Source: Prochlorococcus sp. AG-402-K21 (lineage in GTDB: Bacteria > Cyanobacteriota > Cyanobacteriia > PCC-6307 > Cyanobiaceae). Taken from it: DNA of 64,000 bases. Of this stretch, positions 355 through 28,708 are shown piece after piece; position 1 is the first letter of the stretch, and the number at the start of each line of letters is the position of its first letter. Made by a program: the position numbers and the translations under genes. The DNA is taken from assembly GCA_003216775.1 (NCBI GenBank), contig QCII01000004.1, positions 62,001-126,000 on the forward strand, written 5' to 3'. The notes beneath the pieces were generated by a model. The model was not told the DNA's origin. It saw only the letters and a list, made by a program, of their open reading frames with translations, and made no database searches.

Positions 355-370
355 TTCTTAAAATATTTTT

Positions 371-634: not shown

Positions 635-702
635 GTAAAAAATTTTTTTTTAAACTAATAAATTTTGATTTATTTAAATCTTGATTAAAATAGAATAAAA
701 AT

Positions 703-936: not shown

Positions 937-1008
937 ATGAATAATAAAAAACTTTTTGACTGCACTACGGCAAGTTAATATTGCTTTAATAAATATTTAA
1001 TAAATACC

Positions 1009-1920: not shown

Positions 1921-2009
1921 TCAACTCTAGGACTTACGTAGCACGCATGATTAATGAAAATTGTAAAGATAATATCCTGATAACTAAATAATGTCTTAAG
2001 ATTTATGTT

Positions 2010-4063: not shown

Positions 4064-4077
4064 TTAATGTATTTATT

Positions 4078-5154: not shown

Positions 5155-5182
5155 TATTTAAACTTTTACACCAAGAAACGAA

Positions 5183-6124: not shown

Positions 6125-6175
6125 TAAGTCTGCTGATAATCTTTTTAAAGTAGTTTATGTATTTACCTTAAAAGA

Positions 6176-6985: not shown

Positions 6986-7003
6986 ATTAATAGTCATGAA
7001 AAA

Positions 7004-7375
7004 ATGAAGGACGATTATAAAATTACATTTATTCGAGGTGCTACAACAGCATCTGGTAATTCTGTCAAGGAAATAGAAGAGGCAGTAGTCGAATTAATAG
7101 ATGAATTAATTTCACGCAATAATCTTATTAAGACGAACTTATTATCAATTACATTTACCGCAACAAAAGATTTGGACGCATGTTTTCCTGCATCAATTGC
7201 CAGGAAATATCATGGACTTGATTCAGTAGCATTTTTAGACTGTCAACAAATGCATGTATCAAATGACATAGATTTCTGTATCAGAATAATGGCTCAAGTT
7301 TTGTTGTCAGTAAATAATCCTGTAAAGCATCCTTATTTAAGAGGCGCTGCAAAATTAAGGTCAGATAGATGTTAA
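7004..7375 (+). CDS. aroH: Chorismate mutase, AroH type
   Basis: This 123-residue monofunctional AroH-fold chorismate mutase converts chorismate to prephenate on the way to Phe and Tyr, normally as a trimer. Arg11 (FIRGATTA) corresponds to B. subtilis Arg7, Arg67 to Arg63, Arg94 (CIRIM) to Arg90 and Tyr111 to Tyr108. By ungapped alignment anchored on the CIR motif, Gln82 (in CQQMHV) occupies the position of catalytic Glu78; see findings. The C-terminus (GAAKLRSDRC) is conserved. It is 18 bases after sppA, probably in the same transcript. Confidence 0.9.
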   Translation: MKDDYKITFIRGATTASGNSVKEIEEAVVELIDELISRNNLIKTNLLSITFTATKDLDACFPASIARKYHGLDSVAFLDCQQMHVSNDIDFCIRIMAQVLLSVNNPVKHPYLRGAAKLRSDRC

Positions 7376-7442
7376 CCTTAGTAAGACATTTTTCTACTTT
7401 AAATTTGGATAGACCGAATTAACTTTTTAAAACTTATTTTCA

Positions 7443-8021
7443 ATGTTAAAAAACACAAAGAAACTTGCTTTAAATTTTAAAATTTTAAAATTTTTTCTTA
7501 TCCCTACAATTTTAGTTTCAACTCCATTTTTTAATAATTTTAAGGATGCTAAAGCAGGGCTGGAATTTCAATGGGAACAAGACTCTTCATATAGAAAATT
7601 AAGATGGTACCAAAAAGAGAACAAAAAAAATTTTAGAAATACAATTTATTTTTTCCTAAGGTCATCTGATAGAACTGCCGAACTTTTAAAAATAGAGCTC
7701 GCCATCCCTAAGACCTTTAAGTCAACTTTAAATAAAAAAAATATAATTCTTTGTAAAGTAAGAATAGGTGGTTTTGAAACTCGAACTAAATGTCTAGAAG
7801 AAATTCCCGCAGATATTGAAATTAATACTGATCAATTACCTCTACGTTCATTGAACATCTACCCCTATAAACCAATCCCTTCAAATAAAGAGAGCTATGC
7901 AATTGTCCTCAAAACCTTTAATCCAAAAAAATCGGGGTTGTTTCAATTTCATTCATATGGGCAACTTAAAGGCAATTCAGTTTCAACTTATTTAGGAAGC
8001 TGGACTATTGGGATCGATTAA
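7443..8021 (+). CDS. Exported DUF2808-like protein
   Basis: This 192-residue protein has a basic N-terminus and one hydrophobic helix (about residues 14-30, FFLIPTILVSTPFF), then an Ala-containing site, consistent with a signal peptide. The mature part resembles the cyanobacterial DUF2808 family: beta-rich, with LLKIELAIPKTF, CKVRIGGFETRTKC and a final GSWTIGID strand. Function is unknown for the family; periplasmic or envelope location is expected. It lies between aroH (67 bases upstream) and rpmH (30 bases downstream). Family call from recall. Confidence 0.6.
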   Translation: MLKNTKKLALNFKILKFFLIPTILVSTPFFNNFKDAKAGLEFQWEQDSSYRKLRWYQKENKKNFRNTIYFFLRSSDRTAELLKIELAIPKTFKSTLNKKNIILCKVRIGGFETRTKCLEEIPADIEINTDQLPLRSLNIYPYKPIPSNKESYAIVLKTFNPKKSGLFQFHSYGQLKGNSVSTYLGSWTIGID

Positions 8022-8051
8022 ATGATAAATTAATTATGGATTAATAAAAAA

Positions 8052-8189
8052 ATGACTAAAAGAACTTTTGGCGGAACCTCGAGAAAAAGAAAGCGTGTAT
8101 CTGGTTTTAGAGTAAGAATGCGCTCTCATACTGGAAGAAGAGTTATTAGAAGTAGAAGACAAAAAGGGAGAGAAAGAATAGCTGTATAA
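8052..8189 (+). CDS. rpmH: 50S ribosomal protein L34
   Basis: A 45-residue, highly basic protein reading [20 protein letters not shown] at its start, then [19 protein letters not shown], the unmistakable L34 pattern (normally 44-46 residues). L34 binds 23S rRNA in the large subunit. ATG at 8052, stop 8187-8189. It heads the conserved rpmH-rnpA-yidC order, with rnpA starting 11 bases later. Confidence 0.97.
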
Positions 8190-8200
8190 AACTAAATAAA

Positions 8201-8587
8201 ATGGCCTTACCTAAAAATATGCGTTTAAAAGGTCATAGGACTTTTAATTATATTCACAAAAATTCCAAAATATATAAGGGGAATTTAATGACTTTTAGAG
8301 TGGCAAGATCAAATCCAGAAATACTTTCGTCTCATAATTTCAGGAATAGCTCAAACAATTTGAGGGTTGCAATTGCGATTAGTAAAAAAGTTTCAAAGAA
8401 AGCTGTAGATAGAAATAAAATAAGAAGAATTCTGAATGATTGGTTATTAAAAAATATTCAACTAATTAATAACCACAAACCATATTGGTTACTTGTTAAC
8501 CTTAAATGTGGAGATTACTCCAATGAAAATAAAATTTTTTTGAAGGAATTTCAAAACTTAATGTTTAAATCTGATCTAATAAAATGA
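8201..8587 (+). CDS. rnpA: Ribonuclease P protein component
   Basis: This is the 128-residue protein subunit of RNase P, which helps the RNA subunit cleave 5' leaders from precursor tRNAs. The basic N-terminus starts with MRLKGHRTFNYI, matching the family's LK...F motif. The RNR signature helix appears as SKKVSKKAVDRNKIRRIL (about residues 67-84). It follows rpmH by 11 bases; its TGA is overlapped by the ATG of the PH-domain gene (8584), suggesting translational coupling. Confidence 0.95.
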   Translation: MALPKNMRLKGHRTFNYIHKNSKIYKGNLMTFRVARSNPEILSSHNFRNSSNNLRVAIAISKKVSKKAVDRNKIRRILNDWLLKNIQLINNHKPYWLLVNLKCGDYSNENKIFLKEFQNLMFKSDLIK

Positions 8588-8997
8588 TTAACATGAATGA
8601 AGAAACCTTCTACGAAGGTGGGCCTGCAAAAAGTGATTTAATAATAAATCTATTAGCGGGAATAACTATTCTTGGTTTGCCATTTACCCTTGCGGCACTA
8701 GTAAGGGCCTTGTGGTTGAGATATAAAATTACAAATAAGAGAATTACAATTGATGGTGGATGGTTTGGTAAAAACAAAACACAAGTTTCATTGAGTAATA
8801 TAGAAGAGATAAGATCTATTCCAAGGGGATTCGGGTCATATGGTGATATGGTTCTAATTCTTAACGATGGGTCAAAAGTTGAGATGAAATCACTACCTCT
8901 TTTCAGAGAAAAACAAAAATTTATTGAAGAAAATATAATTAAAAAATCGCAAGCACAAAGCCTTAACGAGGTAGAAGGATTTGCTATAAAATCCTAA
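8584..8997 (+). CDS. Bacterial PH-like domain membrane protein
   Basis: This 137-residue protein has a short N-terminus (ETFYEGGPAKSDL), a hydrophobic hairpin of one or two helices (about residues 20-45), then a PH-like soluble part. That part reads YKITNKRITIDGGWFGK, VSLSNIEEIRSIP and MVLILNDGSKVEMKSL, the typical YKLTN-R...SLxxIxxI pattern of bacterial PH (YdbS/YdbT-like) domains. Function is unknown. The ATG at 8584 overlaps rnpA by 4 bases; ATG at 8593 is an alternative. Its place between rnpA and yidC suggests a membrane-biogenesis role by context. Confidence 0.75.
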   Translation: MINMNEETFYEGGPAKSDLIINLLAGITILGLPFTLAALVRALWLRYKITNKRITIDGGWFGKNKTQVSLSNIEEIRSIPRGFGSYGDMVLILNDGSKVEMKSLPLFREKQKFIEENIIKKSQAQSLNEVEGFAIKS

Positions 8998-9065
8998 TTT
9001 AATTACAAAAAACTCTTTTTCCTGTAAAATAAAATGTCTAATAAAATTTTACTCTTTTTAATATC

Positions 9066-10214
9066 GTGATAGGGTTCATTTCTGAAAAACTTCTTATCCC
9101 GATTCTAGATTTTTTCTACGGCTTAGTCCCTAGTTATGGATTAGCCATTGTTGCATTAACAGTCGTAATAAGAATTGCACTTTTCCCTTTAAGCGCTGGC
9201 TCCATCAGGAGTGCAAGAAGAATGAAGATTGCCCAACCAGTAATGCAAAAAAGACAAGCGGAAATAAAATCTAAGTTTTCAGGTGATCCAAAAAGACAGC
9301 AAGAAGAATTAGGAAAATTAATGAATGAATTTGGCAGTCCTCTTGCGGGCTGTCTCCCGTTGATTGTACAAATGCCTGTGCTTTTTGCATTGTTTGCGAC
9401 CTTAAGAGGCTCACCATTTGCGGATGTTCCTTACAACATTAATTTAAAAGTCCTCCCACAAGATCAAATAGCGGCAATAGATCCAAAACCTTATAAATCC
9501 CCAAGACACTCCATATTCATAACAGAAAAATCTCATTTCCCTGTTATTGCTTCCATTCCAAATGGAACAAAACTAGGAACAGAAGAATCAATAAAGATTA
9601 ATTTACAAACAACTAATGGTAATAGCTACTCGGAAGTTTTATCTAAATACGATAATGGTTCCAAATTTCTCCCTACTTGGAAAGTCTCAAAAGGATCCGA
9701 AAATCTAAAAGTTTCCCAAGATGGTACAGTTACGGCGATTAAACCAGGTGATGCAACAATTGAAGCAAAAATTCCAGGTTTGGCTGCTAAAAGTGGATTT
9801 CTTTTTATTAAAGCACTAGGGCAAGTTGGCTTTTATGTAGATGGTTCTATTAATTGGGATATTGCTGCACTTGTTGGAGCTTTTGGATTAACCTTACTGC
9901 TCTCTCAAGTTTTATCTAGTCAGGGAATGCCAGCGAACCCACAGCAATCTACTGCAAATAAAATCACCCCAATAATGATTACTGGTATGTTTTTGTTCTT
10001 CCCTCTTCCAGCAGGGGTATTACTGTATATGGTCGTTGCTAACATTTTTCAGGCATTTCAAACCTTTCTTCTTAACAAAGAAGCTCTTCCAGAGAATCTA
10101 CAGAAAATTTTGGATCAACAATTAATTGGGAAAAATGATGCGATAACTACTGCTGCTGCAACCATTTCAGAAAAAAGATTACCTTTTGAACCTAATAGTA
10201 AAAAACAATCCTAA
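9066..10214 (+). CDS. yidC: Membrane protein insertase YidC/Oxa1
   Basis: YidC inserts proteins into the plasma and thylakoid membranes. GTG start at 9066, 382 residues. Helix 1 of the core contains Arg36 ([11 protein letters not shown]), the conserved groove arginine; the cytoplasmic helical hairpin spans about 45-92; [16 protein letters not shown] is core helix 2; the last helices run from 265 to 335 with [15 protein letters not shown]. Between core helices 2 and 3, residues 120-255 form a large insert. Its second half (205-250, [14 protein letters not shown]) looks like a Big_2 bacterial Ig domain. The classic order rpmH-rnpA-yidC supports the call. Confidence 0.95.
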
Positions 10215-10223
10215 CCTTTGATA

Positions 10224-11690
10224 ATGAATTCTTGGTGTAAAAATTTAGAATTACTTATTAAATCAAGAACTTCAATAATTTGGATAAGGACTAAAGAAGA
10301 AGAAAGATTAGAAAAAATACTTAATTCCTCATGTGAAAGTTTAAACATAAAAAGATACGTTCGCTGGGACTGTGTTAACGGTATTAAAGGATTATTAAAA
10401 GAAGAGGGTAAATTTTCTAACAATCCTCTACAAGTTCTTAATTGGCTTAAAGAGCAAAGTCCTGAAATATCGACAATATTATTAGTTAAAGATTTTCATA
10501 AATTTTATGATGATCCATCTATAAATAGGACTATTAAAGAACTTTCTTCTAAGCTTAAGGAAACGAATCATAATTTAATTATTAGTTCTCATCTATCTCC
10601 CTCTTCAGAAGAGCTTGATGAATTATTGACAATTATTAACTTACCTTTACCTGATCAAAAAGAATTAAAAAATCTTATAAAAAAAATTGCTGTTAATACT
10701 AATTCAAATCTTGAGGAAAAAGACTTAAACGAACTTTCTATAGCTTCAAGTGGATTAACTGAAATCAAAGTAAAGCAAATTACTGCAAAGGCACTTGCTC
10801 AAAGAGGAAAAATAAGTAAAGAAGATATCAAAGATATTCTTGAAGAGAAAAAACAAGTTATCGCCAGAAGTGAAATTTTAGAATTTTTTGAAGCCAAATC
10901 CAGTCAAAATGATATTGGTGGTTTAAATGTTTTAAAAGTTTGGCTTAATCAAAGATTTAGGGCCTTCTCTAAAGAAGCTAGAGACTATGGATTACCTATT
11001 CCAAAAGGAGTCTTACTAGTAGGGGCGCAAGGAACAGGAAAATCACTTACTGCAAAATCAATTTCCAAGAGTTGGTCGATGCCGCTTCTTAGATTAGATG
11101 TGGGAAGGCTATTCTCTAGCCTTGTTGGCTCAAGCGAGGCAAGAACTAGAGAAACTATTTCTAGAGCTGAGGCTATGTCACCTTGTATTCTTTGGATCGA
11201 TGAAATTGATAAAGGCTTTGGAGGCGATGCCAGAAGTGATGGAGGGACAAGTCAAAGGGTTCTAGCAAGTTTGCTCACTTGGATGGCTGAAAAAGAATCA
11301 GCTGTTTTTGTCATTGCCACCGCTAATGCTATAGATAAGCTTCCTCCGGAATTATTAAGGAAAGGTAGATTTGATGAGATATTTTTCCTTGATTTACCAA
11401 ATTCAGAAGAACGATTAAGCATTCTTGATTTGCACCTAAAAAAAAGGAGACCAAGTTATAGTTTCCCTCTCTCTACCATTATTGATAGAACAGATGGATT
11501 CTCTGGCGCTGAGCTCGAACAATCCGTAATAGAAGGAATGCACATTTCATTTTCAGAAGATAGAGAGCTTATGGAGAAAGATTTAATAAAGGCAGTCTCT
11601 GAATTAGTACCATTGTCCAGAACAGCTAAAGAGCAAATTGATTTACTAAAAAAATGGTCATCTGCTGGTAGGGCTCGTTCCGCGTCTTGA
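10224..11690 (+). CDS. ycf46: Ycf46-like AAA ATPase
   Basis: An AAA ATPase of the plastid/cyanobacterial Ycf46 family, a little-studied group linked to inorganic-carbon acclimation in some cyanobacteria. The N-terminal half (residues 1-210) is a degenerate ATPase-like domain lacking Walker motifs. The C-terminal AAA module starts at NDIGGLNVLKVWL and has Walker A GAQGTGKS, Walker B CILWIDEID, sensor 1 TAN and the arginine finger in ELLRKGRFD. I prefer ATG 10224 (488 residues) to the TTG at 10218. It lies 9 bases after yidC. Confidence 0.9.
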   Translation: MNSWCKNLELLIKSRTSIIWIRTKEEERLEKILNSSCESLNIKRYVRWDCVNGIKGLLKEEGKFSNNPLQVLNWLKEQSPEISTILLVKDFHKFYDDPSINRTIKELSSKLKETNHNLIISSHLSPSSEELDELLTIINLPLPDQKELKNLIKKIAVNTNSNLEEKDLNELSIASSGLTEIKVKQITAKALAQRGKISKEDIKDILEEKKQVIARSEILEFFEAKSSQNDIGGLNVLKVWLNQRFRAFSKEARDYGLPIPKGVLLVGAQGTGKSLTAKSISKSWSMPLLRLDVGRLFSSLVGSSEARTRETISRAEAMSPCILWIDEIDKGFGGDARSDGGTSQRVLASLLTWMAEKESAVFVIATANAIDKLPPELLRKGRFDEIFFLDLPNSEERLSILDLHLKKRRPSYSFPLSTIIDRTDGFSGAELEQSVIEGMHISFSEDRELMEKDLIKAVSELVPLSRTAKEQIDLLKKWSSAGRARSAS

Positions 11691-11815
11691 CTTAATTTTA
11701 ATATATTAAAAATATTGCATAAGTTAGAAATCATTAATTTAGTTAATTTTTTATCAAAAATACCCTAATAATGATTTGATATTAACTATCTTAATTAAGG
11801 TATTAAAAAAAAAGA

Positions 11816-13093
11816 GTGTTAGATCAAAAATTAATAAGAGAAAATCCGGCATGTGTTGAAGAGAATTTATCCCTTAGAGGAAAAGTTTATGATATAACCC
11901 GCATCCACGAATTAACTGTTAGAAAAAAAGAAATTGATATAGAAATATCTAGTCTCCAATCTGAGAGTAAAAAATTAAGTAAATTAATCGGTCAAGAAAT
12001 TAGAAAATGTCAAGACAATAATTCTAAAGAACTTAATAATTTAAAGAAAAAGGGAAACGAATACAGAATCAAGATTTCTGAATTTGAAGAGAAACAAAGA
12101 ATATTAGATGAACAAATAAATAATGAGATTTCTAATTTACCTAATTTTCCAAGCAAAGATGCGCCCACAGGGAAAGACGAAAGTAATAATGTCCAAGTAA
12201 AAACTTGGGGAAATCCTTTAAAAGCAAATAATCTTAAATCTCATTGGGAGATAGGTGAAAGTCTTAATCTTTTTGAGTCTATAAAATCAACAAAAATGTC
12301 AAAAAGTCGTTTTATCACTCTTATTGGAAATGGCGCAAGATTAGAGCGGGCACTAATAAATTTTATGCTCGATATGCATACTAAAAATGGTTATTTAGAG
12401 TTAATGACTCCAGCCTTAGTAAATTCAGAAAGTCTTAAGGGATCTGGACAATTACCTAAATTTTCAAATGAAAGCTTTAAGTGCTCTAATGACGATTTAT
12501 GGCTTTCTCCAACAGCTGAAGTTCCACTAACTGCTTTTCATAAAAATGAAATTATTGATCCCAAACGGTTACCTATTAAATACGTCGCATATAGTCCATG
12601 TTTTAGGAGAGAAGCTGGGAGCTATGGAAAGGATACTAAAGGTTTAATAAGACTGCATCAATTTAATAAGGTTGAGCTTTATTGGTTTTGTAATCCAAGT
12701 AAATCTCTAGAGGCACATAAAAAAATCACCTCTGATGCAGAAAATATATTACAAAAGCTTGAACTACCTTACAGATTAGTTGATATCTGTACTGGGGACT
12801 TAGGATTTTCTTCAAGTAGGACTTTTGACCTTGAAGTATGGCTACCTAGCAGTAAATGTTATAGAGAAATTTCAAGTTGTAGTAATTGCTTAGACTTTCA
12901 AGCACGCAGATCAGCAATAAGAACGAAAATTGATAAAAAAAATACCTATTTACACACCCTAAACGGCAGTGGGCTTGCAATTGGAAGAACAATGGCAGCA
13001 ATTCTTGAAAATGGACAACAATCAGATGGGAGTGTGAAAATCCCTGATTCTCTAGTTCCATATTTTGGATCAAATTTTTTAAAAACTCCCTAA
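11816..13093 (+). CDS. serS: Seryl-tRNA synthetase
   Basis: This class II aminoacyl-tRNA synthetase charges tRNA-Ser. GTG start at 11816, 425 residues, normal length. The N-terminal coiled coil (about residues 30-105) binds the long variable arm of tRNA-Ser. The catalytic domain shows motif 2 ([15 protein letters not shown]) and motif 3 ([16 protein letters not shown]). LTPTAEVPL appears as [10 protein letters not shown], the serine-binding loop. rseP begins 9 bases downstream. Confidence 0.97.
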
Positions 13094-13102
13094 TATAAAT
13101 AA

Positions 13103-14182
13103 ATGAATGTTTTAACCTCATTAACAGTTTTAGGATTTCTCATTTTCTTTCATGAAATGGGACATTTTCTTGCGGCAATATTTCAAGGCATATACGTTGA
13201 TGGGTTTTCCATTGGGTTTGGTCCCTCAATAATCCAAAAAAAATATAGGGGTATTACTTATTCATTTAGGGCATTCCCATTGGGGGGATTCGTTTCCTTC
13301 CCAGATGAAGAACAAAACAATATAAATCCTGAAGACCCAAACCTTTTGAAAAATAGACCAATAATTCAAAGATTGATTGTAATTTCAGCTGGGGTATTCG
13401 CTAATTTACTCCTCGCCTACACTATCCTAACAATCAATGTAACTACTAATGGTATTCCTTATGATCCAGAACCAGGTATTTTAGTTTTAGCCACACAGCC
13501 TGAAAAAGCAGCGGCTAAGTCAGGGGTTGAACCAGGAGATAAAATTTTAAAAATAGATGGAATTTCTCTCGGTATTGGAGATCAAGCAGTTTCTTCTCTT
13601 GTAAAAAAAATACAAAGTTCTTCAGAAGAATCAATACAAATACAAATAGAGAGGAGAGGGTCTTTTAAAGAATTAACACTAATACCTAAAAATATTAATG
13701 GGAAAGGGACTATAGGTGCCCAATTACAGCCAAACATTAAACAAGAAACAATAAAAACGAAAACTATCAATGAACTTATTAGATATACAAATAAAGAGTT
13801 CTCATCACTTCTAATCAAAACAATCCAAGGTTATAAGGGTTTAATCACAAATTTCTCTTCAACTGCTCAACAATTGAGCGGGCCAGTAAAAATAGTTGAA
13901 ATTGGGGCACAATTATCAGAGCAGGGCGGTACTGGAATTTTATTATTTGCAGCATTAATTTCTATAAATTTAGCAGTTTTGAATTCACTTCCCCTACCAC
14001 TCCTAGATGGAGGCCAGTTTGTTTTTACAATTATTGAAGGTTTAAGAGGTAAGCCAGTTCCAATAAAAATACAAATTGCAGTTACACAATCAAGTTTTCT
14101 TCTTTTAGTAGGATTAAGTGTTTTATTGATAATAAAAGACACAAGTCAATTACTAATTGTTCAAAGATTGTTTAGCCAATAA
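13103..14182 (+). CDS. rseP: RseP-type site-2 intramembrane zinc protease
   Basis: A 359-residue site-2 protease that cleaves within membrane-spanning substrates. The zinc motif HEMGH is at residues 17-21 in the first helix. A PDZ domain follows (about 125-200; AKSGVEPGDKILKIDG). The C-terminal LDGG zinc-ligand motif (LPLPLLDGGQF) is near residue 300. Only one PDZ domain is present, as in cyanobacterial and Gram-positive forms. It is 9 bases after serS. The substrate, possibly an anti-sigma factor, cannot be inferred. Confidence 0.93.
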   Translation: MNVLTSLTVLGFLIFFHEMGHFLAAIFQGIYVDGFSIGFGPSIIQKKYRGITYSFRAFPLGGFVSFPDEEQNNINPEDPNLLKNRPIIQRLIVISAGVFANLLLAYTILTINVTTNGIPYDPEPGILVLATQPEKAAAKSGVEPGDKILKIDGISLGIGDQAVSSLVKKIQSSSEESIQIQIERRGSFKELTLIPKNINGKGTIGAQLQPNIKQETIKTKTINELIRYTNKEFSSLLIKTIQGYKGLITNFSSTAQQLSGPVKIVEIGAQLSEQGGTGILLFAALISINLAVLNSLPLPLLDGGQFVFTIIEGLRGKPVPIKIQIAVTQSSFLLLVGLSVLLIIKDTSQLLIVQRLFSQ

Positions 14183-14245
14183 ATTATTTCTTTTAAGAAG
14201 TATGGTTTAACTGTTAATATATTATCTATTACATTAAATTTTTTG

Positions 14246-14548
14246 ATGGCAAAAAAATCAATGATTGCGAGAGAAGTTAAACGCAAAAAACTTGTGCAAA
14301 GATATGCTGCTAAGAGAAAATCTTTATTAGAAGAATTTAAAGCCGCCAAAGATCCTATGGAGAGATTAGAAATACATAGAAAGATTCAAGGTTTGCCAAG
14401 AAATTCAGCTCCCACAAGAGGCAGAAATAGGTGTTGGGCAACAGGAAAACCAAGAGGAGTCTATAGAGACTTTGGATTATGTAGGAACCAATTAAGGCAA
14501 AGAGCACATAATGGTGAATTACCAGGCGTAGTAAAATCTAGTTGGTAA
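14246..14548 (+). CDS. rpsN: 30S ribosomal protein S14
   Basis: A 100-residue S14 of the long, zinc-free type. It starts [20 protein letters not shown] and ends with [31 protein letters not shown] and VKSSW, all diagnostic. ATG at 14246 is preferred to the TTG three bases upstream. S14 assembles late into the small-subunit head. It lies between rseP and pnp rather than in an spc operon, as usual in cyanobacteria. Confidence 0.97.
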
Positions 14549-14740
14549 TTATATTAAATAATGAAATTTTTAAAATTTTCTTTAATTTTAATTTTTCTTT
14601 AAAATCTAGTTTTAGCAATAGATATTGTGGATAATTCAGTTAAATTTCTAAATCTTTTTTAAACCTTATATAAATAATTCTCTCAATATGTACCTATGAG
14701 ATGTAAGAATAAATTATGTATAGATAAATAATTTTAAAAA
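14549..14740. other. Intergenic region with a possible signal-peptide relic
   Basis: 192 bases between rpsN and pnp. ATG at 14561 opens a 13-codon secretion-like start (MKFLKFSLILIFL) closed by TAA at 14600. The same frame continues with NLVLAIDIVDN to a second stop at 14660. This resembles a signal peptide with a cleavage site interrupted by a stop, and may be a decayed exported protein, or chance in AT-rich DNA. The pnp leader, a likely site of autoregulation, also lies here, but I see no clear hairpin. Confidence 0.25.
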
Positions 14741-16906
14741 GTGGAAGGACAAAATAAGTCGATCACGTTTGACGGACGAGAGATACGACTAACTACAGGA
14801 CTTTATGCTCCTCAAGCGAATGGTTCAGTAATGATTGAATGTGGGGACACATCTTTGTTAGTTACCGCAACAAGAACTACAAAGAAAGAAGCTGCAGATT
14901 TTTTACCTCTAATATGTGATTACGAGGAGAAACTTTACGCCGCTGGTAGGATTCCAGGTGGATTTATGCGAAGAGAAGGAAGGCCTCCAGAAAGAGCTAC
15001 TTTAATTTCAAGGTTGATTGATAGACCAATGAGGCCTCTATTTCCACCCTGGATGAGAGATGAGATACAAATTGTCGCATCATGCCTTTCCCTCGATGAG
15101 AGAGTGCCTGCAGATGTATTAGCCGTTACAGGAGCTTCTATTGCAACATTGTTAGGAGAAATTCCCTTCTATGGGCCAATGGCGGCTGTAAGAGTTGGAC
15201 TTCTAGGTGATGATTTTATTTTAAATCCGAGTTTCCGAGAAATAGAGAAAGGTGATCTTGACATAGTTGTTGCAGGCTCACCCGATGGAGTTGTAATGAT
15301 TGAAGCTGGTGCTAATCAGCTTTCAGAACAAGATACAATTGAAGCTATTGATTTTGGCTACGAAGCTGTAAACGAACTTATTAAGGCTCAAGAAGATTTA
15401 CTCAAAGAATTAGGAATTAAACAAGTCCAACCAATTGAGCCAGAAGAAGATAAAACGTTGAGCGCATATCTTGAAAAAAACTGCACGAAATCAATTGAGC
15501 TTACTTTAAAGAAATTTGATCAAACCAAAGAAGTTAGAGATATTGAATTAGATCAGATAAAAATTGATGTGCAAAATAAAATTGAATCGCTAAAAGATGA
15601 TAATCAATTAAAGGTTTTTATTAGAGAAAATGAGAAGTTAATTCATTCTGATTTCAAAAAGTTAACTAAAAAATTAATGCGGTCACAAATTATTAATGAT
15701 GGCAAAAGAGTTGATGGGAGAGATCTTGATGAAGTCAGAAAAATATCAGCTACTGCAGGGATACTGCCCAAAAGAGTACATGGATCTGCCTTGTTCCAAA
15801 GGGGCTTAACTCAAGTATTGTCTACAACAACATTAGGTACTCCTAGTGATGCACAGGAGATGGATGACCTAAATCCCAGTACTGAAAAAACCTATCTGCA
15901 TCATTATAATTTTCCACCTTATTCTGTGGGAGAAACCAGACCAATGAGGACTCCAGGAAGAAGAGAAATTGGTCATGGAGCCTTAGCAGAAAGAGCAATT
16001 ATACCTGTACTTCCCGGTAAAGAAACTTTTCCATATGTACTAAGAGTAGTTAGTGAAGTTTTAAGTTCCAATGGATCCACCTCAATGGGTTCAGTCTGCG
16101 GGAGCACTCTTTCTTTATTAGATGCCGGAGTTCCTCTCAAAGCTCCAGTTAGTGGAACAGCAATGGGGTTAATAAAAGAAGATAAAGAAGTTAGGATTCT
16201 TACTGATATTCAAGGGATTGAGGACTTTTTAGGAGATATGGATTTCAAAGTTGCCGGGACCGAAAAAGGTATTACAGCGCTCCAAATGGATATGAAAATA
16301 ACAGGATTACCAGTTTCTATTATTTCAGATGCAATTAAAAAAGCGCGTCCAGCAAGATTGCATATCTTAGAAAAAATGCAGACAGCTATAGATAAGCCTC
16401 AAGAATCATTATCCCCACATGCTCCAAGACTATTAAGTTTCAGGATTGACCCAGAACTTATAGGTACTGTTATAGGACCTGGTGGAAGGACTATAAAAGG
16501 AATAACAGAAAGAACAAATACAAAAATTGATATAGAAGACGGAGGAATAGTAACTATTGCATCTCATGATGGTGCTGCGGCTGAGGAAGCTCAAAAAATC
16601 ATCGAAGGATTAACTCGCAAAGTGCATGAAGGAGAGATCTTCACAGGTGTAGTTACGAGGATCATCCCAATTGGGGCGTTTGTAGAAATTCTTCCAGGGA
16701 AAGAAGGAATGGTGCATATTTCTCAATTATCTGAAGCAAGAGTTGAGAGAGTTGAAGATGTTGTACGTCAAGGTGATGAAGTTACAGTGAGAGTAAGGGA
16801 AATTGATAGTAGAGGAAGAATTAATCTTACTCTTAGAGGCGTTTCCCAAAACAGTAATATGAATTATCCTGAACCAACCCCAACTCCTGTGGCGCCATTA
16901 TCTTAA
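14741..16906 (+). CDS. pnp: Polyribonucleotide nucleotidyltransferase (PNPase)
   Basis: This 3'-5' phosphorolytic exoribonuclease also makes heteropolymeric tails in cyanobacteria. GTG start at 14741, 721 residues. There are two RNase PH domains (about 5-215 and 310-545; the second carries [16 protein letters not shown] and [19 protein letters not shown]), an alpha-helical linker between them, a KH domain ([15 protein letters not shown], about 570-600) and an S1 domain ([18 protein letters not shown], from about 635). All motifs are intact. Confidence 0.97.
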
Positions 16907-16923
16907 ATTAAATTTTGAATTTC

Positions 16924-17808
16924 TTATGTATTCACTATATTAGAAATTTTTTTGCAAATTTCATAATGGTTAGAAGTCATTGATGCAATTAATATTCCTT
17001 CTTGGTCATAACTTCCCTTTAAAAAGTCTAATTTACGTCCTTTAATATCGGTAAAATAACCGCCAGCCCCTTCTATGATCGCCAGTGGGGCTGCAATATC
17101 CCAATCTTTTGGAGATGATCCATTTGGGAGAGAATATGATAAATATACATCAGCATCACCTCTCAAAATTGAGGTTATTTTGTAACCAACGCTACCCACG
17201 CCCATAATATTTTTAGGATTTAATTTTTCTAAAAGAAATTTAAATGCAGGATGATAATGGCTCTTACTTCTTATTATTGTAAGCTGATCTACTTTCTTAC
17301 AACTGGGTTCAATAGATATTTCCTTTCTTACTCCCTTATATTCACACCATGTCTCTTGACCTTTAACATTTATCCATAATTCTTGTTTACTTGGTATTAA
17401 AACATACCCAATTATTATCTTTTTCTGATACGTCAACGCCAAATGCATCGCATATTCCCCAGTACCTTGTATGAAATCCTTAGTGCCATCAAGAGGATCT
17501 ATAATCCACATCCATTCTCTCTCATGAAAGCTATCATCATTACTATGATAATCTTCTTCAGAAAGGAACTCCCAATCAACATTAGGATATTTTTCACTTA
17601 TCCCTTTTTTAATAAAATTACTAATCTCTACATCAGCATTTGTTACGGGTCCCGTATTTAAATTCTGAATTTCTAATTTTTTCTTAAAGTCATTGGAGTT
17701 TTGATTATTCTGAGTATAATATTTAAAAATATTATCGATATCCCAACATAATGAGCTAATTGTCGTGATCAGTTCCTCTGGATTTACATTTCTTGGCAAA
17801 AAGATCAT
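16924..17808 (-). CDS. cysQ: 3'(2'),5'-bisphosphate nucleotidase (CysQ), inositol monophosphatase family
   Basis: A 294-residue Mg/Li-sensitive phosphatase that removes the 3'-phosphate from PAP formed during sulfate assimilation. Metal-binding motifs are visible: the SEEDYH glutamates, WIIDPLDGTKDFIQG (about residues 101-115) and the C-terminal WDIAAPLAIIEGAGG. It is divergent from rsmI with only 6 bases between the two start codons. It could be another member of the inositol monophosphatase family, but length and the DGTKDF motif favour CysQ. Confidence 0.85.
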   Translation of the reverse strand: MIFLPRNVNPEELITTISSLCWDIDNIFKYYTQNNQNSNDFKKKLEIQNLNTGPVTNADVEISNFIKKGISEKYPNVDWEFLSEEDYHSNDDSFHEREWMWIIDPLDGTKDFIQGTGEYAMHLALTYQKKIIIGYVLIPSKQELWINVKGQETWCEYKGVRKEISIEPSCKKVDQLTIIRSKSHYHPAFKFLLEKLNPKNIMGVGSVGYKITSILRGDADVYLSYSLPNGSSPKDWDIAAPLAIIEGAGGYFTDIKGRKLDFLKGSYDQEGILIASMTSNHYEICKKISNIVNT

Positions 17809-21398: not shown

Positions 21399-22121
21399 TT
21401 AAAATAATTTGTGAGCTAATAGCCTTTTTTTTAAAAAAATCCTTACTAAGGAAAAAAACATACTTTTTATAAAAATCATTTTAGAAACTATATTTTTATT
21501 CCAATGGCTTTCACCATAAATCCTTTCTGGAAATAAAACGGGGAATCTATACGGCTTATAACCTTTTATTAAAGCGACTAGAAATATGTATACATCAAAT
21601 TCATAAGAATTGGGCGCAATTTTTATTTCTTCTTTCATCGATTTGTGAAATATTGATGGCTGTGCACAAATTTCATAAGTTGATAAAGGGAAAAACAATA
21701 TAGAGCTTAAAAGCGACATCGCATCACTAAAAAATTTGTCCTTAAAAGGCCTGCCAAACCTTTTACCTTTCAAAACTATTTTTTTATTATTTCTTTTTAT
21801 ATTATTTTTGATAATATCATATGCTTTTATTACATCAAAAAGATCAGTCTGCAAATCTGCATGCGTCCAGCCAATATATTCTCCATTACAGAATTCTATA
21901 AAATTTTTTATACCAAAACCATAACCCCTATTTTCTTGAATATTAAAGAATCTGATTTTGTTAGAACTTCTTAAAGAATTAAACTTTTCTTTTGTTCCGT
22001 CATTAGAACCATTATCCACAAAAATAATCTCGATATCATAGTTTTTTGTTATGTAGAGCGATTTTTTATATAAAAGATCTAAAGACTCTAACTCGTTGTA
22101 ACAAGGTATTATTACACTCAT
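21399..22121 (-). CDS. Glycosyltransferase family 2 (DPM1-like)
   Basis: A 240-residue GT-A enzyme. It starts MSVIIPCYNELESLD, with VDNGSNDGTKEKF and THADLQTDL as the metal-binding DxD-like segment. The C-terminus has a basic amphipathic helix but no clear transmembrane pair. Similar enzymes add sugars to polyprenyl phosphate. A gtrA gene sits directly divergent, and GtrA proteins commonly partner polyprenyl-phosphate sugar systems. ATG 22121 is preferred to the ATG nine bases upstream, because family members begin at the first beta strand. Confidence 0.85.
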   Translation of the reverse strand: MSVIIPCYNELESLDLLYKKSLYITKNYDIEIIFVDNGSNDGTKEKFNSLRSSNKIRFFNIQENRGYGFGIKNFIEFCNGEYIGWTHADLQTDLFDVIKAYDIIKNNIKRNNKKIVLKGKRFGRPFKDKFFSDAMSLLSSILFFPLSTYEICAQPSIFHKSMKEEIKIAPNSYEFDVYIFLVALIKGYKPYRFPVLFPERIYGESHWNKNIVSKMIFIKSMFFSLVRIFLKKRLLAHKLF

Positions 22122-22177
22122 TAGAAACATGGCTTAAAATAAATCATATGGTCTAATTCTAAGTGATAATAAAACTT

Positions 22178-22552
22178 ATGAATATATTGAGAAAACAAAT
22201 AAAAGGATTTTTTATTGCTGGATGTTTTGCAAATATTATAAGTTTTGCATCATATGTTTTGTTTTATAAAAGTCTTAATTTATCCATATTAGTCTCTTCT
22301 ATATCTGCTCAGATATTGGGTGTGGCAACCAATTATGGAATAAATAGCAGATATATTTTCAAAAAAAGTCTTAGCATTAAAAAAAAATTTTTCTACGCAA
22401 TTTATTATTCCACAGCTATATACTTTGTAGGTTTACTCATAAAAGCATTAACATCAATAAATATCGAGTACAGAGTCGCTTGGTTTTTATCAATTTTCTT
22501 TGTTTCAATATCGAATTTCATCTTTGTTAAATATTTAGCATTTAAAAGTTAA
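22178..22552 (+). CDS. GtrA-family membrane protein
   Basis: A 124-residue protein with four hydrophobic helices, the GtrA fold. Typical features are the IKGFFIAGCFANIISFASY first helix and ATNYGINSRYIFK between helices 2 and 3. GtrA-like proteins are thought to flip polyprenyl-phosphate sugars. ATG 22178 is preferred to the upstream GTG at 22163. It is divergent from a GT2 gene (56 bases between starts), its natural partner, and overlaps the convergent phosphodiesterase-like gene by 4 bases. Confidence 0.85.
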   Translation: MNILRKQIKGFFIAGCFANIISFASYVLFYKSLNLSILVSSISAQILGVATNYGINSRYIFKKSLSIKKKFFYAIYYSTAIYFVGLLIKALTSINIEYRVAWFLSIFFVSISNFIFVKYLAFKS

Positions 22553-23157
22553 TTTATAATTAGTCTTTTCCACAATTTAATATTCTTATTCTTGCAACAA
22601 ATTGCATCTATTTTTAAATCGTATTTTTTTATTAAATTCGCATATTTCTCTATTTCTTCCTCTCTGCCTAAAAGATCAGGAGATGTAAAACATTTTTTTA
22701 CATTAATAGAGTTCATTATCTTTATATTTTTTTCATTTATAGGGAAAGTGGTAAAAGTATCTATCCAGATCCAATTAATTAATGAACTTTCAAAAAGCTT
22801 TATAGATGTCTCTAAACTCTCAAATTCTGAAAATCTTGATGAGAAATTATAAACTTTCCCAAATTTAGCAATCATACTAAAACTACTATCTAAAAAAAAA
22901 TATTCTGATTTTGGAGCCAAAACCTTCAGCAATTCTACAAATTTTTCTTCAATCCTCTCGCTTTTGATATTGGCTATTATTTTTCTGCCATCTAGTCTTG
23001 GGAGATATTCTTCTAAGTAAATAAAATCATTAAAAAAAGGATCATGGCTGAGAATCAAATCAGAATTATATTCACGCAAATCTATCTCTACTCCTACATT
23101 TTTATCAACCGTTAAAAGTTTATCTATTGAATTAATTCTATGAGAATAAAAATACAT
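22549..23157 (-). CDS. Glycerophosphodiester phosphodiesterase-like protein
   Basis: This 202-residue TIM-barrel-like protein carries the GDPD catalytic pattern: His6-Arg7 (YSHRINSIDKL), Glu24-x-Asp26 (GVEIDLRE) and His38-Asp39 (ILSHDPF). It is shorter than typical GDPDs (240-300 residues). A function on a sugar-phosphate or nucleotide-linked diester fits the context better than lipid turnover, which is inference. It lies 133 bases downstream of the tandem nucleotidyltransferase on the same strand. I see no signal peptide, so it is likely cytoplasmic. Confidence 0.65.
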   Translation of the reverse strand: MYFYSHRINSIDKLLTVDKNVGVEIDLREYNSDLILSHDPFFNDFIYLEEYLPRLDGRKIIANIKSERIEEKFVELLKVLAPKSEYFFLDSSFSMIAKFGKVYNFSSRFSEFESLETSIKLFESSLINWIWIDTFTTFPINEKNIKIMNSINVKKCFTSPDLLGREEEIEKYANLIKKYDLKIDAICCKNKNIKLWKRLIIN

Positions 23158-23290: not shown

Positions 23291-24823
23291 TTAATTTACT
23301 TCAATTAGTGATTTATAGTTATTAAGCCAATATTGATATTCTCTTAACTCATCAGGAGTTCCTAGATGATAATATTTTTCCAAAGGCACAAATCCTAAAG
23401 ACTTTCCGATGTCTAAAGAATATTCCATTAAGTCATCTATAATTATTTCTCTATTAATATCAATATTTGATTTATAAAAATTATCAATTGTTTGTGAGAA
23501 ATTCTTTCCATTTTTGATCCAAAAGAAACCTGCCAATCCCTTACTTGATTTAATTTCTACTTTTTTAATAAAAAGTTTTTTAACTTCTCCTTTATCATGT
23601 TCCAAGGTGGAATAGTTAGATTTTGATTTTATTTGTAAAAGAGAAGGATTAAAACCGAAACAAATAATATCATAATTTGAAGAATTAACTTTTTCGTAAA
23701 ACAACTCTTGGTCAAAAAAGCCAAAACAATCACAAGAACATATGAAGAAATTTTTCAACTTCTCTAAAGAATACTTACTCTCAAATAAAGATTCTATTTG
23801 ACTATTAGTTTCTTTTATTTTTATATATGATACTTTTTTATTTAGGAATGACAAAGGGACCTCTAAATTATTAAAAACCAAAGAAATTTTATTGGAATCA
23901 ATCGGCATGTATTTTAAGACAAGTTCTAATAATCTCTCCTTATTTATGGGTATAAGCGCTTTTGGCTTATCAGATATATCTTTCATTCTTGAACCTTTGC
24001 CTGAAGTAAAAATAAATGTTGAATATAATTTCTGAAAATTTAAATTTTTTATAGTATATTTTAAAAAATTAATCCAGCTAATAAAATCTTCATACTGTTC
24101 TGGTGTTCCATAATGTATAAAATTTTTTACAGGAATTAATTTTACTCCAATTTTCGACTTAATAATTTCATTAAACATAAGAGAGGGGAAAAACTCATTT
24201 GAAACTTTATTATTTGAAGTAATTAGTTTTTTTAAAGGCAAGCCAATTAAGATTAAATCTTTCACATAAAATAAACCTATAGAAAGAGGTTCATTCATCC
24301 AATCATTTGTAAAAGATTCTTTTTCTTTTATTTCTAAAAGTTGATTTTTTGAGTCTTTTGATTCTAAACAAAATGCCGAATAATTATTATTGACTAAATG
24401 TGGGTGAAATCCATAATGACAAAATATTGCCGCCTTAACTTCTTCTTTAGGAATTAAGAATTTATTATTATTCCAAGACCACGTGATATCACAATAAGAG
24501 ATAAAAGTTGGGATACCTTTTGGTAAATCATCATATGCCTTAAAAATAGTATAAGCTGGCCCTAAAACATGATCATCAATAATAATTATTTTTAAGGTAT
24601 TTTTGGAAATTCTTTTTTTTAGAAAATGATCATCTTCCAGCTCTTTTTTGATATTTAAAGTTGTAATCAAATAAACTATTGTTTTATCATTAAATTTTCC
24701 AATCACTCTCTCTATCATATGAGCATTATCTATTTTAAGAATTGATTTATGTTTTTTATAACCTACTTTTTTAAATCTCTTACCATATCCACATAAAGGT
24801 ATTACCAGTAAAGAATTGTACAT
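23291..24823 (-). CDS. Tandem nucleotidyltransferase (two NTP-transferase domains fused)
   Basis: A 510-residue protein made of two GT-A-like sugar-nucleotidyltransferase domains. Domain 1 (about 1-255) has CGYGKRF at 11-17 and KHKSILKID as a weakened PKP motif. It also has SYCDITW (109-115) and ends HYGTPEQYEDF. Domain 2 (about 266-505) has TSGKGSRM at 273-280, DKPKALIPI at 285-293, CSCDCFGF, and ends HLGTPDELREY. The repeated GTPxE close suggests internal duplication. The protein should activate one or two sugar phosphates with NTP; base and sugar are unknown. Its start is 3 bases after the stop of the 1293-residue fusion gene. Confidence 0.75.
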   Translation of the reverse strand: MYNSLLVIPLCGYGKRFKKVGYKKHKSILKIDNAHMIERVIGKFNDKTIVYLITTLNIKKELEDDHFLKKRISKNTLKIIIIDDHVLGPAYTIFKAYDDLPKGIPTFISYCDITWSWNNNKFLIPKEEVKAAIFCHYGFHPHLVNNNYSAFCLESKDSKNQLLEIKEKESFTNDWMNEPLSIGLFYVKDLILIGLPLKKLITSNNKVSNEFFPSLMFNEIIKSKIGVKLIPVKNFIHYGTPEQYEDFISWINFLKYTIKNLNFQKLYSTFIFTSGKGSRMKDISDKPKALIPINKERLLELVLKYMPIDSNKISLVFNNLEVPLSFLNKKVSYIKIKETNSQIESLFESKYSLEKLKNFFICSCDCFGFFDQELFYEKVNSSNYDIICFGFNPSLLQIKSKSNYSTLEHDKGEVKKLFIKKVEIKSSKGLAGFFWIKNGKNFSQTIDNFYKSNIDINREIIIDDLMEYSLDIGKSLGFVPLEKYYHLGTPDELREYQYWLNNYKSLIEVN

Positions 24824-24826: not shown

Positions 24827-27800
24827 CTAAATAGACAATTGATTATTCAATTGTTTGTAATTGAATAAAATATCAGATAAATTTTTATCTTTTATAATAC
24901 TCCAACCAGCAAAAATATTTGCGCCAGAATTAAAACAATCCAAAATATTATTAAAAGTTAGTCCACCATCTATTTCAATATCAAAAACCTCTAATTTTTC
25001 TTCAATACTCATTCTTCTTAGGAAGTTGATTTTTTTAAGACTACGAGTTTGGAATAATTGCCCACCATACCCAATTGGAACCCCCATAATAATTACCCAA
25101 TTAATTTCTAAATATCTTATGAGATTCCATAATTCTTTAAAATCCGACTGATTTACTTCAATAACAATACCTGGTCTGCATCCAGAACTTCTTATGTACT
25201 CAATAGCATCTTTTAAAGATTGCTCATTTTTAAATGATCTAGGATGAACTCCTAATGAGGTTGTCCCAGATTCTATATAAGAGTCAACATAAGATTTATT
25301 ATTTGGCAATAACGAAAAAGGATCTTTAACCATTAAATGTGTATGTAACTTCAGTTGAGAATCTAATGATGAAAGATACTCTAATTTCTTAATCCCAGAA
25401 AATTTCCTTGAAATAAAATTACCATCGCCTACATCAACATGAAAAAATTTAAGACCAGATGTTAACAATCCCTGTGCAATTTCCATAAATCCATCTTCAT
25501 AAGGGACTTCTATCATTGATGCTGAAAAAGAAATATCATTAAAATTAATATTCTTAAGTTTATTTTTAGCTAATTTTTGTTTTGATTTTTTGAATGTCGA
25601 AAGTATAATTTCAATAGTCTTTGAATTGAATTTAAAAGAGCTTCTATGAAAATAAGCTAAATCTTTGGATGTAAGTTTTGGTGAATTTATTACATTTAAG
25701 ATTTTATTTGTACATTTTTTTAAGTTATCTTTTATTAATCCTTTTTCCTCTTTTTTAAGTAAACTTTTTATTTTCCTAACTTCAGGCATTTGATATTTGG
25801 AATCAGGCCCAAATGTCCTTATTTCTTTATTAAATCTATTAGGTAATGATGATTGATATACTTTTAGCAAATCTCCCGCGACATTTACTTTATGACACCC
25901 TTTTACTGATTGATTTAAAATTTTTGGATCTGAATTAGTTGTCCCATGTAAAACTGCACTAATAAAATTCTGATCCTTTATTTTGTCCACCCAATCAAAG
26001 GTTATAGTTGAATCAATACGTTCACCATCACTGCTATGGTGTGTTGTTCCAACGTTTCCAATGAATAAAGTAGGTCTGCAATTAAACCTACCCTTATTAA
26101 TAGTTATTAGACTTTGTCGCACAAGATTAGTAAAAATTCTTATTTCTTCTGCTGTTGGAATCATAGAATTAGAGACATCTCCAATATAATTCATCTCACC
26201 AACACAATATTCTAAATCAGTTAAGAATAAATCATTCTTGGTTTCTAAAAGTGATACAGCATAATTGACTACTTTGGTATAAGCATTTTTAATAGTTTTA
26301 ACTTCTCTATCTTTTGCCTTAAAAAGATGAGATCCATCTAGAACAACATGTGTGACTTGGCCAGTATCTAAAGCCATCTCTAGAAATCTTTTTGCCCTGC
26401 CATTTGGGATATCATTTCTTGCATCAACATGGTCAAGACCAATGCCATAAAAGGTTCTACTACATCCTTTGATTAAGACATTTTTAATATTAGATTTAAT
26501 ACATGCATCAACCAATTTACTTGGACCATTAACCAGTTGTAAGTAACCAATATATTTTTTATCCCCATCGTATTCTTCTTGACCTAAAGCATTAAATGAA
26601 GATTGCAATACAACAGGAGTCTCATAATTTGATGCACATTCTAAAATAGCCTCAACATCAAGAGACTGATCGTCATTAATGTCATAAACATTAGCTCCTA
26701 ATACAGCAGAGGCATCTCCTCTAATGTGAAGCCACAAATAAATCTCTGCCATAATACTTGGATAAAAGCTTGGCATTTCTGCTAATGGAAAAGTTGTTTT
26801 TTCTATATCCTCAAATTCAATCCCATTAATTGCTAGGAATTCTTTTGTATTTATTTCTATACCATTTTGATCATTAACTATATATTCAAAAGCTCTTTTT
26901 CTAATAATTCTGTTCGAAGAATTTAACATACTCCTTAAGTCAATTATCACATCATTCAAATTATGTTTTTTCTGACTTTCAAACAAAAAACCATCAATCA
27001 AAATAAAAGAAGTATATTTATCTAAAACTATTTTATTGGCTTCATTAATCTCTTTCTTTATCTCTAAATCATAGTCTGCTTGATCATATTTATTTATTTC
27101 TTCAACAGAAATCCAATGTCTGCACCAAATCTGAAATGATTCAACTAAATCCCTATCCTTGGAATTAATCCCAATTAAATAATTAGAAATAGTTAAACAA
27201 TTTATGCCACAGGACTCTAAAAACTTCTTAAAGAAATTCAGTTCAGAGTACTGGGATACTCTATGACAAAAAATAGATTCTGAATTGCTAATAACTTTTT
27301 TACAAATAGAGAATATTGATGTTAATTCATGCTCTCTACCTGTATAAACAATATTAAATTGTTCATCTTTAATAAATGAAGGTATGCAAAAGTCTGTGGG
27401 AGAATATAAAACTTTAACAAAAGTATTTAACTTTTTTTCATTATTTAAAAGTTTTAAGGATGTGTTAGTGATTTCAAAAGTATGTTCTTTAACATTCTTT
27501 TCCAAGTTATTCAATGATCGCTGTATTTTAATCTCATATGAACCTCCGTCCCAAAGGAACATTATCTCTATAAAGTTAATATCAATATTGTAATGAACAA
27601 AAATATATCTCTTATTTAAGCTTTCAATTTTTATACCAATACTTACAGGAATCTTCCTTTGGTAAACATCATATAATGAGGAGCTTGAAACAATATCAAA
27701 TAGTATCTTAATGTCTTCTGTTTTAGTTTCTTCTGATATAGTTTCTAACTCCTTGAAAACAATTGATTGAATATTATTTTTATGTTGATGCGTATCATTT

Positions 27801-28708
27801 TGCAATTTTCCAGAAATTAATTTGTCTAAAAATTTGTATAAGTTAAATATTCTGACAAATTGATCTAAATTTAAAAATCTATCTATTTTTGAAGAGGAAA
27901 AAATGCTTTCATACAAAATTTCATAATTAAAATGATTATTAATCAGCTTCTCATTATTAAATTTATTTAAATCTTTATAAAACCAATCCCCAATTTTATT
28001 ATTAGAAATTATTAAAGGATTTTTATAATCAGTGTTATCTACTAAAAGATCAATATTTTTGTGAAATCTTGAAATATGATATGAAAAAGAAGGTATATCA
28101 ATTTTATGAAAATAATCTATAGCAGCATCTGATGATCTATACCCTTTAACTCTGTCGATCTTTCTTTTTAATAATTCTTTTTTATCTGCTAGAAGACATA
28201 TATTAAAATCAATTAAATTTCTAAATTCAGTTCTAGAAGTATAGTGCCCTTCACAAATTATTAAGGTCTTTGGCGATGAAAAATTAAATTCATGTTTTGC
28301 TACGCATTCGCCTTTAGCCTCTCTCGAATATAAGGAACTAATTAATAAAGAATTCTCTTTAATTGCTGAATTACAATCAGTTCTATTTTTTTTTAAAAGA
28401 TGAATCTTCTCTAAAAAATCTTTAAATTTATGAAGGTGCATATGTAGTTCACCCTCATAATAAAAAGGTTCCTTTTGATTCATTAAGCCTTTTAAATCAT
28501 TCTCTCTTGAAGTTCTTTTCTTAAGCGTCCAATCTAATCTATAAAAATCTACGTTTATTGATAATTCTTTTTTTATTATTCCGCCCAGATCTTCTGCGAG
28601 GATAGTTTTCCCTGCCGCAGTAGGACCATCAATACAAATTACTACTATATTTGTATCATTTAGTAATTTTTTAACCTTAGCAATTATTAAGCTATGGAGA
28701 GGCGGCAT
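24827..28708 (-). CDS. Kinase / class II aldolase-like / pentulose-phosphate-epimerase-like fusion protein
   Basis: A 1293-residue multidomain protein. Residues 1-235 form a uridine-kinase/phosphoribulokinase-like P-loop domain (IDGPTAAGKT at 27-35; DFYRLDW; CEGHYTSR). Residues 240-640 I do not recognise. Residues 645-975 match class II fructose/tagatose-bisphosphate aldolases: GLDHVDARND (757-766), EYCVGEMN, GNVGTTH (884-890), VLHGTTNSD (919-927), CHKVNVAGD. Residues 1055-1285 match ribulose-phosphate 3-epimerase: FHVDVGDGNF (1089-1098), LHTHLMVKDP (1121-1130), MGVPIGYGGQ, FDIEIDGGLT. This suggests ketose phosphates are built, epimerised and phosphorylated before activation by the downstream nucleotidyltransferase. 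The domain calls are strong for the two barrels, moderate for the kinase; the pathway is inference. Confidence 0.75.
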   Translation of the reverse strand: MPPLHSLIIAKVKKLLNDTNIVVICIDGPTAAGKTILAEDLGGIIKKELSINVDFYRLDWTLKKRTSRENDLKGLMNQKEPFYYEGELHMHLHKFKDFLEKIHLLKKNRTDCNSAIKENSLLISSLYSREAKGECVAKHEFNFSSPKTLIICEGHYTSRTEFRNLIDFNICLLADKKELLKRKIDRVKGYRSSDAAIDYFHKIDIPSFSYHISRFHKNIDLLVDNTDYKNPLIISNNKIGDWFYKDLNKFNNEKLINNHFNYEILYESIFSSSKIDRFLNLDQFVRIFNLYKFLDKLISGKLQNDTHQHKNNIQSIVFKELETISEETKTEDIKILFDIVSSSSLYDVYQRKIPVSIGIKIESLNKRYIFVHYNIDINFIEIMFLWDGGSYEIKIQRSLNNLEKNVKEHTFEITNTSLKLLNNEKKLNTFVKVLYSPTDFCIPSFIKDEQFNIVYTGREHELTSIFSICKKVISNSESIFCHRVSQYSELNFFKKFLESCGINCLTISNYLIGINSKDRDLVESFQIWCRHWISVEEINKYDQADYDLEIKKEINEANKIVLDKYTSFILIDGFLFESQKKHNLNDVIIDLRSMLNSSNRIIRKRAFEYIVNDQNGIEINTKEFLAINGIEFEDIEKTTFPLAEMPSFYPSIMAEIYLWLHIRGDASAVLGANVYDINDDQSLDVEAILECASNYETPVVLQSSFNALGQEEYDGDKKYIGYLQLVNGPSKLVDACIKSNIKNVLIKGCSRTFYGIGLDHVDARNDIPNGRAKRFLEMALDTGQVTHVVLDGSHLFKAKDREVKTIKNAYTKVVNYAVSLLETKNDLFLTDLEYCVGEMNYIGDVSNSMIPTAEEIRIFTNLVRQSLITINKGRFNCRPTLFIGNVGTTHHSSDGERIDSTITFDWVDKIKDQNFISAVLHGTTNSDPKILNQSVKGCHKVNVAGDLLKVYQSSLPNRFNKEIRTFGPDSKYQMPEVRKIKSLLKKEEKGLIKDNLKKCTNKILNVINSPKLTSKDLAYFHRSSFKFNSKTIEIILSTFKKSKQKLAKNKLKNINFNDISFSASMIEVPYEDGFMEIAQGLLTSGLKFFHVDVGDGNFISRKFSGIKKLEYLSSLDSQLKLHTHLMVKDPFSLLPNNKSYVDSYIESGTTSLGVHPRSFKNEQSLKDAIEYIRSSGCRPGIVIEVNQSDFKELWNLIRYLEINWVIIMGVPIGYGGQLFQTRSLKKINFLRRMSIEEKLEVFDIEIDGGLTFNNILDCFNSGANIFAGWSIIKDKNLSDILFNYKQLNNQLSI

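Follow-up and report, generated by a model that had tools for sequence, protein, structure and literature searches.

The closest described framework for the locus analysed here is the GtrA/GtrB system of polyprenyl-phosphate sugar delivery, in which a GtrA protein and a DPM/GtrB-like GT2 glycosyltransferase form the usual pair, placing a sugar onto polyprenyl phosphate and then flipping it. Three enzyme families provide the remaining points of reference, namely the class II fructose-/tagatose-bisphosphate aldolases (FBA; PF01116), the ribulose-phosphate 3-epimerase (RPE) family (PF00834), which includes RPE and allulose-6-phosphate 3-epimerase, and the phosphoribulokinase (PRK)/uridine kinase family (PF00485). 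FBA-type enzymes act on threo ketose-1-phosphates such as xylulose-1-phosphate, FucA-type enzymes act on erythro ketose-1-phosphates such as ribulose-1-phosphate, and RPE interconverts the two series. Few phototrophs are as abundant as Prochlorococcus, whose surface glycans are believed to affect phage attachment. The sugars of these glycans are largely unknown, and a fused enzyme accompanied by its own activation and delivery genes gives a definite starting point for identifying one of them.

Such an enzyme is encoded in the 64,000-nucleotide stretch of Prochlorococcus sp. AG-402-K21 analysed here (the window), which is part of a 1.64 Mb genome. The protein and its domains are laid out as follows.

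24827..28708, minus strand: 1293-residue fusion with an ATG start, in the order kinase, middle region without known family, class II FBA-type aldolase, RPE (open reading frame, Pfam, fold matches, orthologues)
28004..28651, minus strand: PRK/uridine-kinase-like P-loop kinase domain, residues ~20-235 (motifs, Pfam, profile)
26774..27991, minus strand: middle region, residues ~240-645, without known family and with a low-confidence model
25754..26761, minus strand: class II FBA-type aldolase barrel, residues ~650-985 (Pfam, motifs, model)
24836..25543, minus strand: RPE-type barrel, residues ~1056-1291 (Pfam, matches to solved structures, motifs)

A first-pass annotation, made from the sequence alone, had described kinase, class II aldolase-like and RPE-like domains in a single frame, with some 400 unmatched residues separating kinase from aldolase. 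It had also proposed channelled synthesis of a phosphorylated ketose and an unusual sugar, readings that we treat as conjecture. Pfam, profile and fold matches bear out the three domains, and residues ~240-645 indeed found no match in Pfam, PHROG or the PDB. The 1293-residue open reading frame is a real, recurrent and unusual protein. Full-length or nearly full-length orthologues occur in three other Prochlorococcus genomes, and the fusion is therefore neither a chance reading frame nor an assembly join. A literature search, whose coverage of subscription journals was thin, returned no earlier description of the fusion and no published pathway assigned to it.

The aldolase domain is recognised by PF01116 at residues 886-977 (E=1.3e-7), and the same family was found in all five members scanned. 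A model of residues 640-1050, built from seven homologues (pLDDT 69.6, pTM 0.77), forms an eight-stranded beta/alpha barrel whose strands follow the class II FBA order, and class II FBA-family aldolases head its PDB matches (best E=1.2e-10, probability 1.00). Strand by strand, the barrel reads LGANVYD, VVLQSS, GLDHVDA, HVVLDGS, DLEYCVGE, GNVGTTHH, VLHGTT and HKVNVAG, a series familiar for class II FBA. Across seven sequences the motifs DH (in LDH), LDGS, E..GE, GN.GT.HH, LHGTT (in VLHG) and N.AG are invariant, and the metal-binding histidines and catalytic Asp/Glu of class II FBA are kept in all seven, the third metal histidine being assigned by profile alignment and the other positions by strand position. 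The domain thus has the barrel of the family and its motifs in strand order, but it is only about 16% identical in the fold matches, scores far under the subfamily cut-offs and sits inside a 1293-residue chain.

The epimerase domain shows a comparable combination of kinship and departure. PF00834 matches residues 1081-1266 (E=1.2e-25) and was detected in five of five sequences scanned, and the solved RPE structure 2fli is matched at 1.4e-17. The domain shares the whole barrel, both metal histidines and both catalytic aspartates with the family, and these active-site residues are invariant (H41, D43, H75 and D198 in domain-alignment numbering); catalytic motifs are therefore retained in both barrels of the protein. 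By contrast, the phosphate loop carries AGWS, and the family's first active-site motif, MDG, is replaced by VGDG in the fused form and by FGDN in the split form described below. The score against TIGR01163, the equivalog model for true ribulose-phosphate 3-epimerase, is 100 bits, under the cut-off of 212.6. Together, the altered motif and the equivalog score suggest that the substrate may differ from that of true RPE.

For the kinase domain, a single-sequence comparison with PF00485 remained below threshold (E=0.0068; 16.7 bits against a gathering cut-off of 22). A profile of seven sequences finds the P-loop protein 1rz3 (1.4e-9) and uridine kinase (2.8e-6), and the motifs GPTAxGKT (Walker A) and EGHYTxR (EGH-type) are invariant in these seven sequences. 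Walker A, the EGH motif and lid arginines are held in common with the PRK/uridine kinase family, of which the seven-sequence profile clearly makes the domain a distant relative.

The middle region yielded a weak model (pLDDT 63, pTM 0.57) whose top fold matches, although not significant (E>=0.64), are sedoheptulose bisphosphatases. These weak matches prompted a comparison with 13 cyanobacterial FBPases, which gave an hhalign probability of 0.1%, and an FBPase/SBPase identity was rejected. Kinship with five kinds of protein from the proteobacterial module considered below was likewise rejected, as its HAD, aldolase, PRK, nucleotidyltransferase and GDPD-like members gave no match. Few residues of this region are invariant across fused and split forms, a pattern better suited to a structural part or to a function that changes fast than to an ancient active site under conservation.

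Within the genus, 6 of the 266 genomes encode the protein; outside it, so does G227, a member of another genus of the same family. Four genomes carry the fused form (39-46% identical), namely that of the window, G033 (1274 aa, 39% identical to the window protein), G914 (1293 aa, 42%) and G829/AG-449-P16 (42%, truncated where the contig ends). G227 and G850 encode a kinase-middle-aldolase protein of 949-951 aa and an epimerase of 231 aa in adjacent genes with a 4-bp overlap. A third arrangement occurs in G387, where the kinase-aldolase is kept beside a shortened epimerase gene of 129 codons (L040:3838-4227) that runs into an oppositely oriented oxidoreductase gene; genes resembling the NeuB/NeuC type lie nearby, as if the island had recombined there. 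A tree built from the kinase and aldolase parts separates fused from split forms as two groups, both with full support. Enzymes that are neighbours in one lineage and a single chain in another have been kept together, which is good evidence that they would function jointly. Outside this set, a search of 386 genomes of the cyanobacterial phylum returned, beyond the window, weak P-loop matches only. An all-bacteria scan with a few peptide patterns, which leaves room for distant bacterial relatives, found two Prochlorococcus loci, and the phages and plasmids searched gave RPE matches but lacked the kinase-middle-aldolase part.

The genes next to the fusion point to the surface. The following features adjoin it in the window.

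23291..24823, minus strand: 510-residue two-domain nucleotidyltransferase, starting 3 bp after the fusion stop
22549..23157, minus strand: 202-residue GDPD/PLC-like protein with HR, ExD and HD motifs kept (homologues annotated as PI-PLC/GDPD family; no Pfam match)
22163..22552, plus strand: GtrA-type membrane protein, putative lipid-linked-sugar flippase (PF04138, E=3.2e-10)
21399..22130, minus strand: GtrB/DPM-like GT2, nearest solved relative dolichol-phosphate mannose synthase

The region is rich in nucleotide-sugar and glycosyltransferase genes, which together with the delivery genes upholds the earlier placement of the protein in a surface-glycan island; GC content is 26-27% in the module region versus 33% at positions 1-17000. 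Wherever an intact cluster can be read, in five genomes, the fusion or its split form lies with the nucleotidyltransferase, GtrA and the DPM/GtrB-like GT2; in four of the five the GDPD-like protein is there too. The window, G033 and G914 have in common the GT2, GtrA, GDPD-like protein, two-domain nucleotidyltransferase and fusion; G850 has the same neighbours, GDPD-like protein included, around the split form, and G227 combines the split form with nucleotidyltransferase, GtrA and GT2. On the short contig of AG-449-P16, the GT2 adjoins the fusion. As in GtrA/GtrB delivery, GtrA and the GT2 stand side by side, but the Prochlorococcus set adds its own nucleotidyltransferase, GDPD-like protein and carbon-skeleton enzymes. 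No membrane glycosyltransferase of the GtrC type was identified beside the module in the window. G033 and G227 each encode, close to the module, a hydrophobic protein of 601-604 residues (L032:804-2618, L041:11644-13449), the two being 37% identical to each other; the G033 protein had no Pfam match, and proteins of this kind could be membrane glycosyltransferases.

A second assembly around the same delivery genes, apparently without a name so far, was found on proteobacterial plasmids. Homologues of the two-domain nucleotidyltransferase occur on plasmids of E. coli (NZ_CP145712), Hirschia (pHbal01) and Azospirillum (p5), where the neighbouring genes encode GtrA, GT2, a GDPD-like protein, a kinase, a HAD phosphatase and a protein of the class II aldolase/adducin type. 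Delivery genes on these plasmids and in the Prochlorococcus clusters are homologous (for the window GtrA by Pfam). In both modules, a kinase and an aldolase thus accompany the nucleotidyltransferase, GtrA, GT2 and GDPD-like protein. The modules differ in that the plasmid kinase is a close PRK relative (E=9e-40), of another type than the fusion kinase and fused to a hydrophobic N-terminal domain, and in that the plasmid module has the HAD phosphatase and the class II aldolase/adducin-type enzyme but neither RPE nor an FBA-type barrel. The plasmid aldolase keeps a Glu and His set that we take to resemble that of FucA/RhaD aldolases. With a PRK relative and a FucA/RhaD-type enzyme in one module, kinase and metal aldolase appear to be constant between the two in kind and not in family. 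Stereochemistry would explain the exchange, since RPE is present only in the set that has the FBA-type enzyme and the two aldolase types prefer opposite, threo and erythro, substrates. With a common core but different aldolase types, the cyanobacterial and proteobacterial sets can be compared to test the chemistry.

Our preferred reading, which we hold at about even odds, is that the fusion is a dedicated multi-enzyme making or remodelling a ketose phosphate for one surface-glycan building block by a lipid-linked route. The RPE domain would interconvert ribulose-5-phosphate and xylulose-5-phosphate, or a related ketose-phosphate pair, the kinase domain would add a second phosphate, and the threo ketose bisphosphate so formed would be joined or cleaved between C3 and C4 by the FBA-type domain, one half being DHAP. 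The adjoining nucleotidyltransferase would activate the product of the enzyme set, the GT2 would transfer the activated unit to polyprenyl phosphate, and GtrA would flip the lipid-linked unit, which would then join the glycan outside the cytoplasm. The proposal builds on the domains, their conserved catalytic positions, their recurrence, the fused and split forms and the neighbourhood. The plasmid modules that join such delivery genes to a kinase and a metal aldolase also speak for it, as do housekeeping copies of FBA, PRK and RPE at other places in the genome. From the evidence we infer substrates, reaction direction, product and channelling, as well as the roles of the middle domain and GDPD-like protein. 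Against it, an anomeric phosphate would normally be required by a nucleotidyltransferase working with a DPM-like GT2, and no enzyme of this set is known to produce one. The weak single-sequence kinase match and a middle region that matched no family also count against it, as does G387, where no nucleotidyltransferase lies on the readable side of the kinase-aldolase gene. A bolder form of the proposal, which we hold tentatively and think somewhat doubtful, is that a single chain might perform every carbon-skeleton step of a lipid-linked sugar pathway not described before, namely epimerisation, phosphorylation, an aldol step and perhaps a fourth step by the new middle domain, and that the proteobacterial version would be made from different enzyme families of matching stereochemistry.

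As a rival reading, the product could be a pentulose itself, such as D-xylulofuranose, which occurs in some O-antigens. RPE would then form xylulose-5-phosphate, the kinase would phosphorylate the anomeric hydroxyl, the nucleotidyltransferase would yield NDP-xylulose for delivery by GT2 and GtrA, and the aldolase would serve another step or control supply. The complete set of RPE catalytic residues and the adjoining nucleotidyltransferase, GT2 and GtrA fit this scheme, as does the close PRK relative of the proteobacterial counterpart, for which a pentulose phosphate is a likely substrate. It leaves an intact aldolase domain without a role, however, and the Prochlorococcus set has no phosphatase. 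In addition, the literature search, again with subscription journals thinly covered, found nothing relevant on xylulose, GtrA or a fusion pathway, and no paper tying such genes to xylulose. We consider a pentulose product unlikely. Alternatively, the enzymes might run towards breakdown, from ribulose-5-phosphate through xylulose-5-phosphate and xylulose-1,5-bisphosphate to DHAP and glycolaldehyde phosphate, with the C2 unit or a derivative activated by the nucleotidyltransferase. RPE, kinase and FBA-type aldolase are stereochemically consistent in that order, and the proteobacterial PRK relative and FucA/RhaD-type aldolase, without RPE, would give the same products from ribulose-1,5-bisphosphate. 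Yet no nucleotide-activated C2 unit of such a kind is known, and a DPM-like GT2 normally transfers a glycosyl group. We consider this route quite improbable.

Every recognised domain of the fusion comes from families of central carbon metabolism, so that a metabolic shunt lying in the island by chance, unrelated to any glycan, could also be envisaged. Its restriction to six of the 266 genomes and the glycan-delivery genes in five of five readable intact clusters speak against such a shunt, as do the housekeeping FBA, PRK and RPE genes located elsewhere in the window's genome, and we judge it very improbable.

Several further loci carry parts of the proteobacterial module. The E. coli module (L080:6022-14984, NZ_CP145712.1) comprises eight genes, including one for a hypothetical 586-aa protein, on an IncR plasmid, and megablast located it in 2 of 5426 E. 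coli genomes, both times on plasmids. The hydrophobic N-terminal domain fused to the PRK-like domain is membrane-like and spans about 360 residues or more (L080:9456-11438; L081:15812-17911; L082:15334-17451); we know of no membrane-bound phosphoribulokinase. Plasmids of Azospirillum ramasamyi, Tropicibacter and Rhizobium combine a related nucleotidyltransferase, a GDPD-like protein and a HAD phosphatase without kinase or aldolase (L086:5639-9246; L087:5709-9224; L083:5948-9421), and the joint occurrence of these three suggests that they may form an older core. Furthermore, the cyanophages S-SM2 and Bellamy encode a homologue of the two-domain nucleotidyltransferase (L084:10001-11569; L085:8001-9575), which adjoins a GT61 glycosyltransferase and a class II aldolase/adducin gene.
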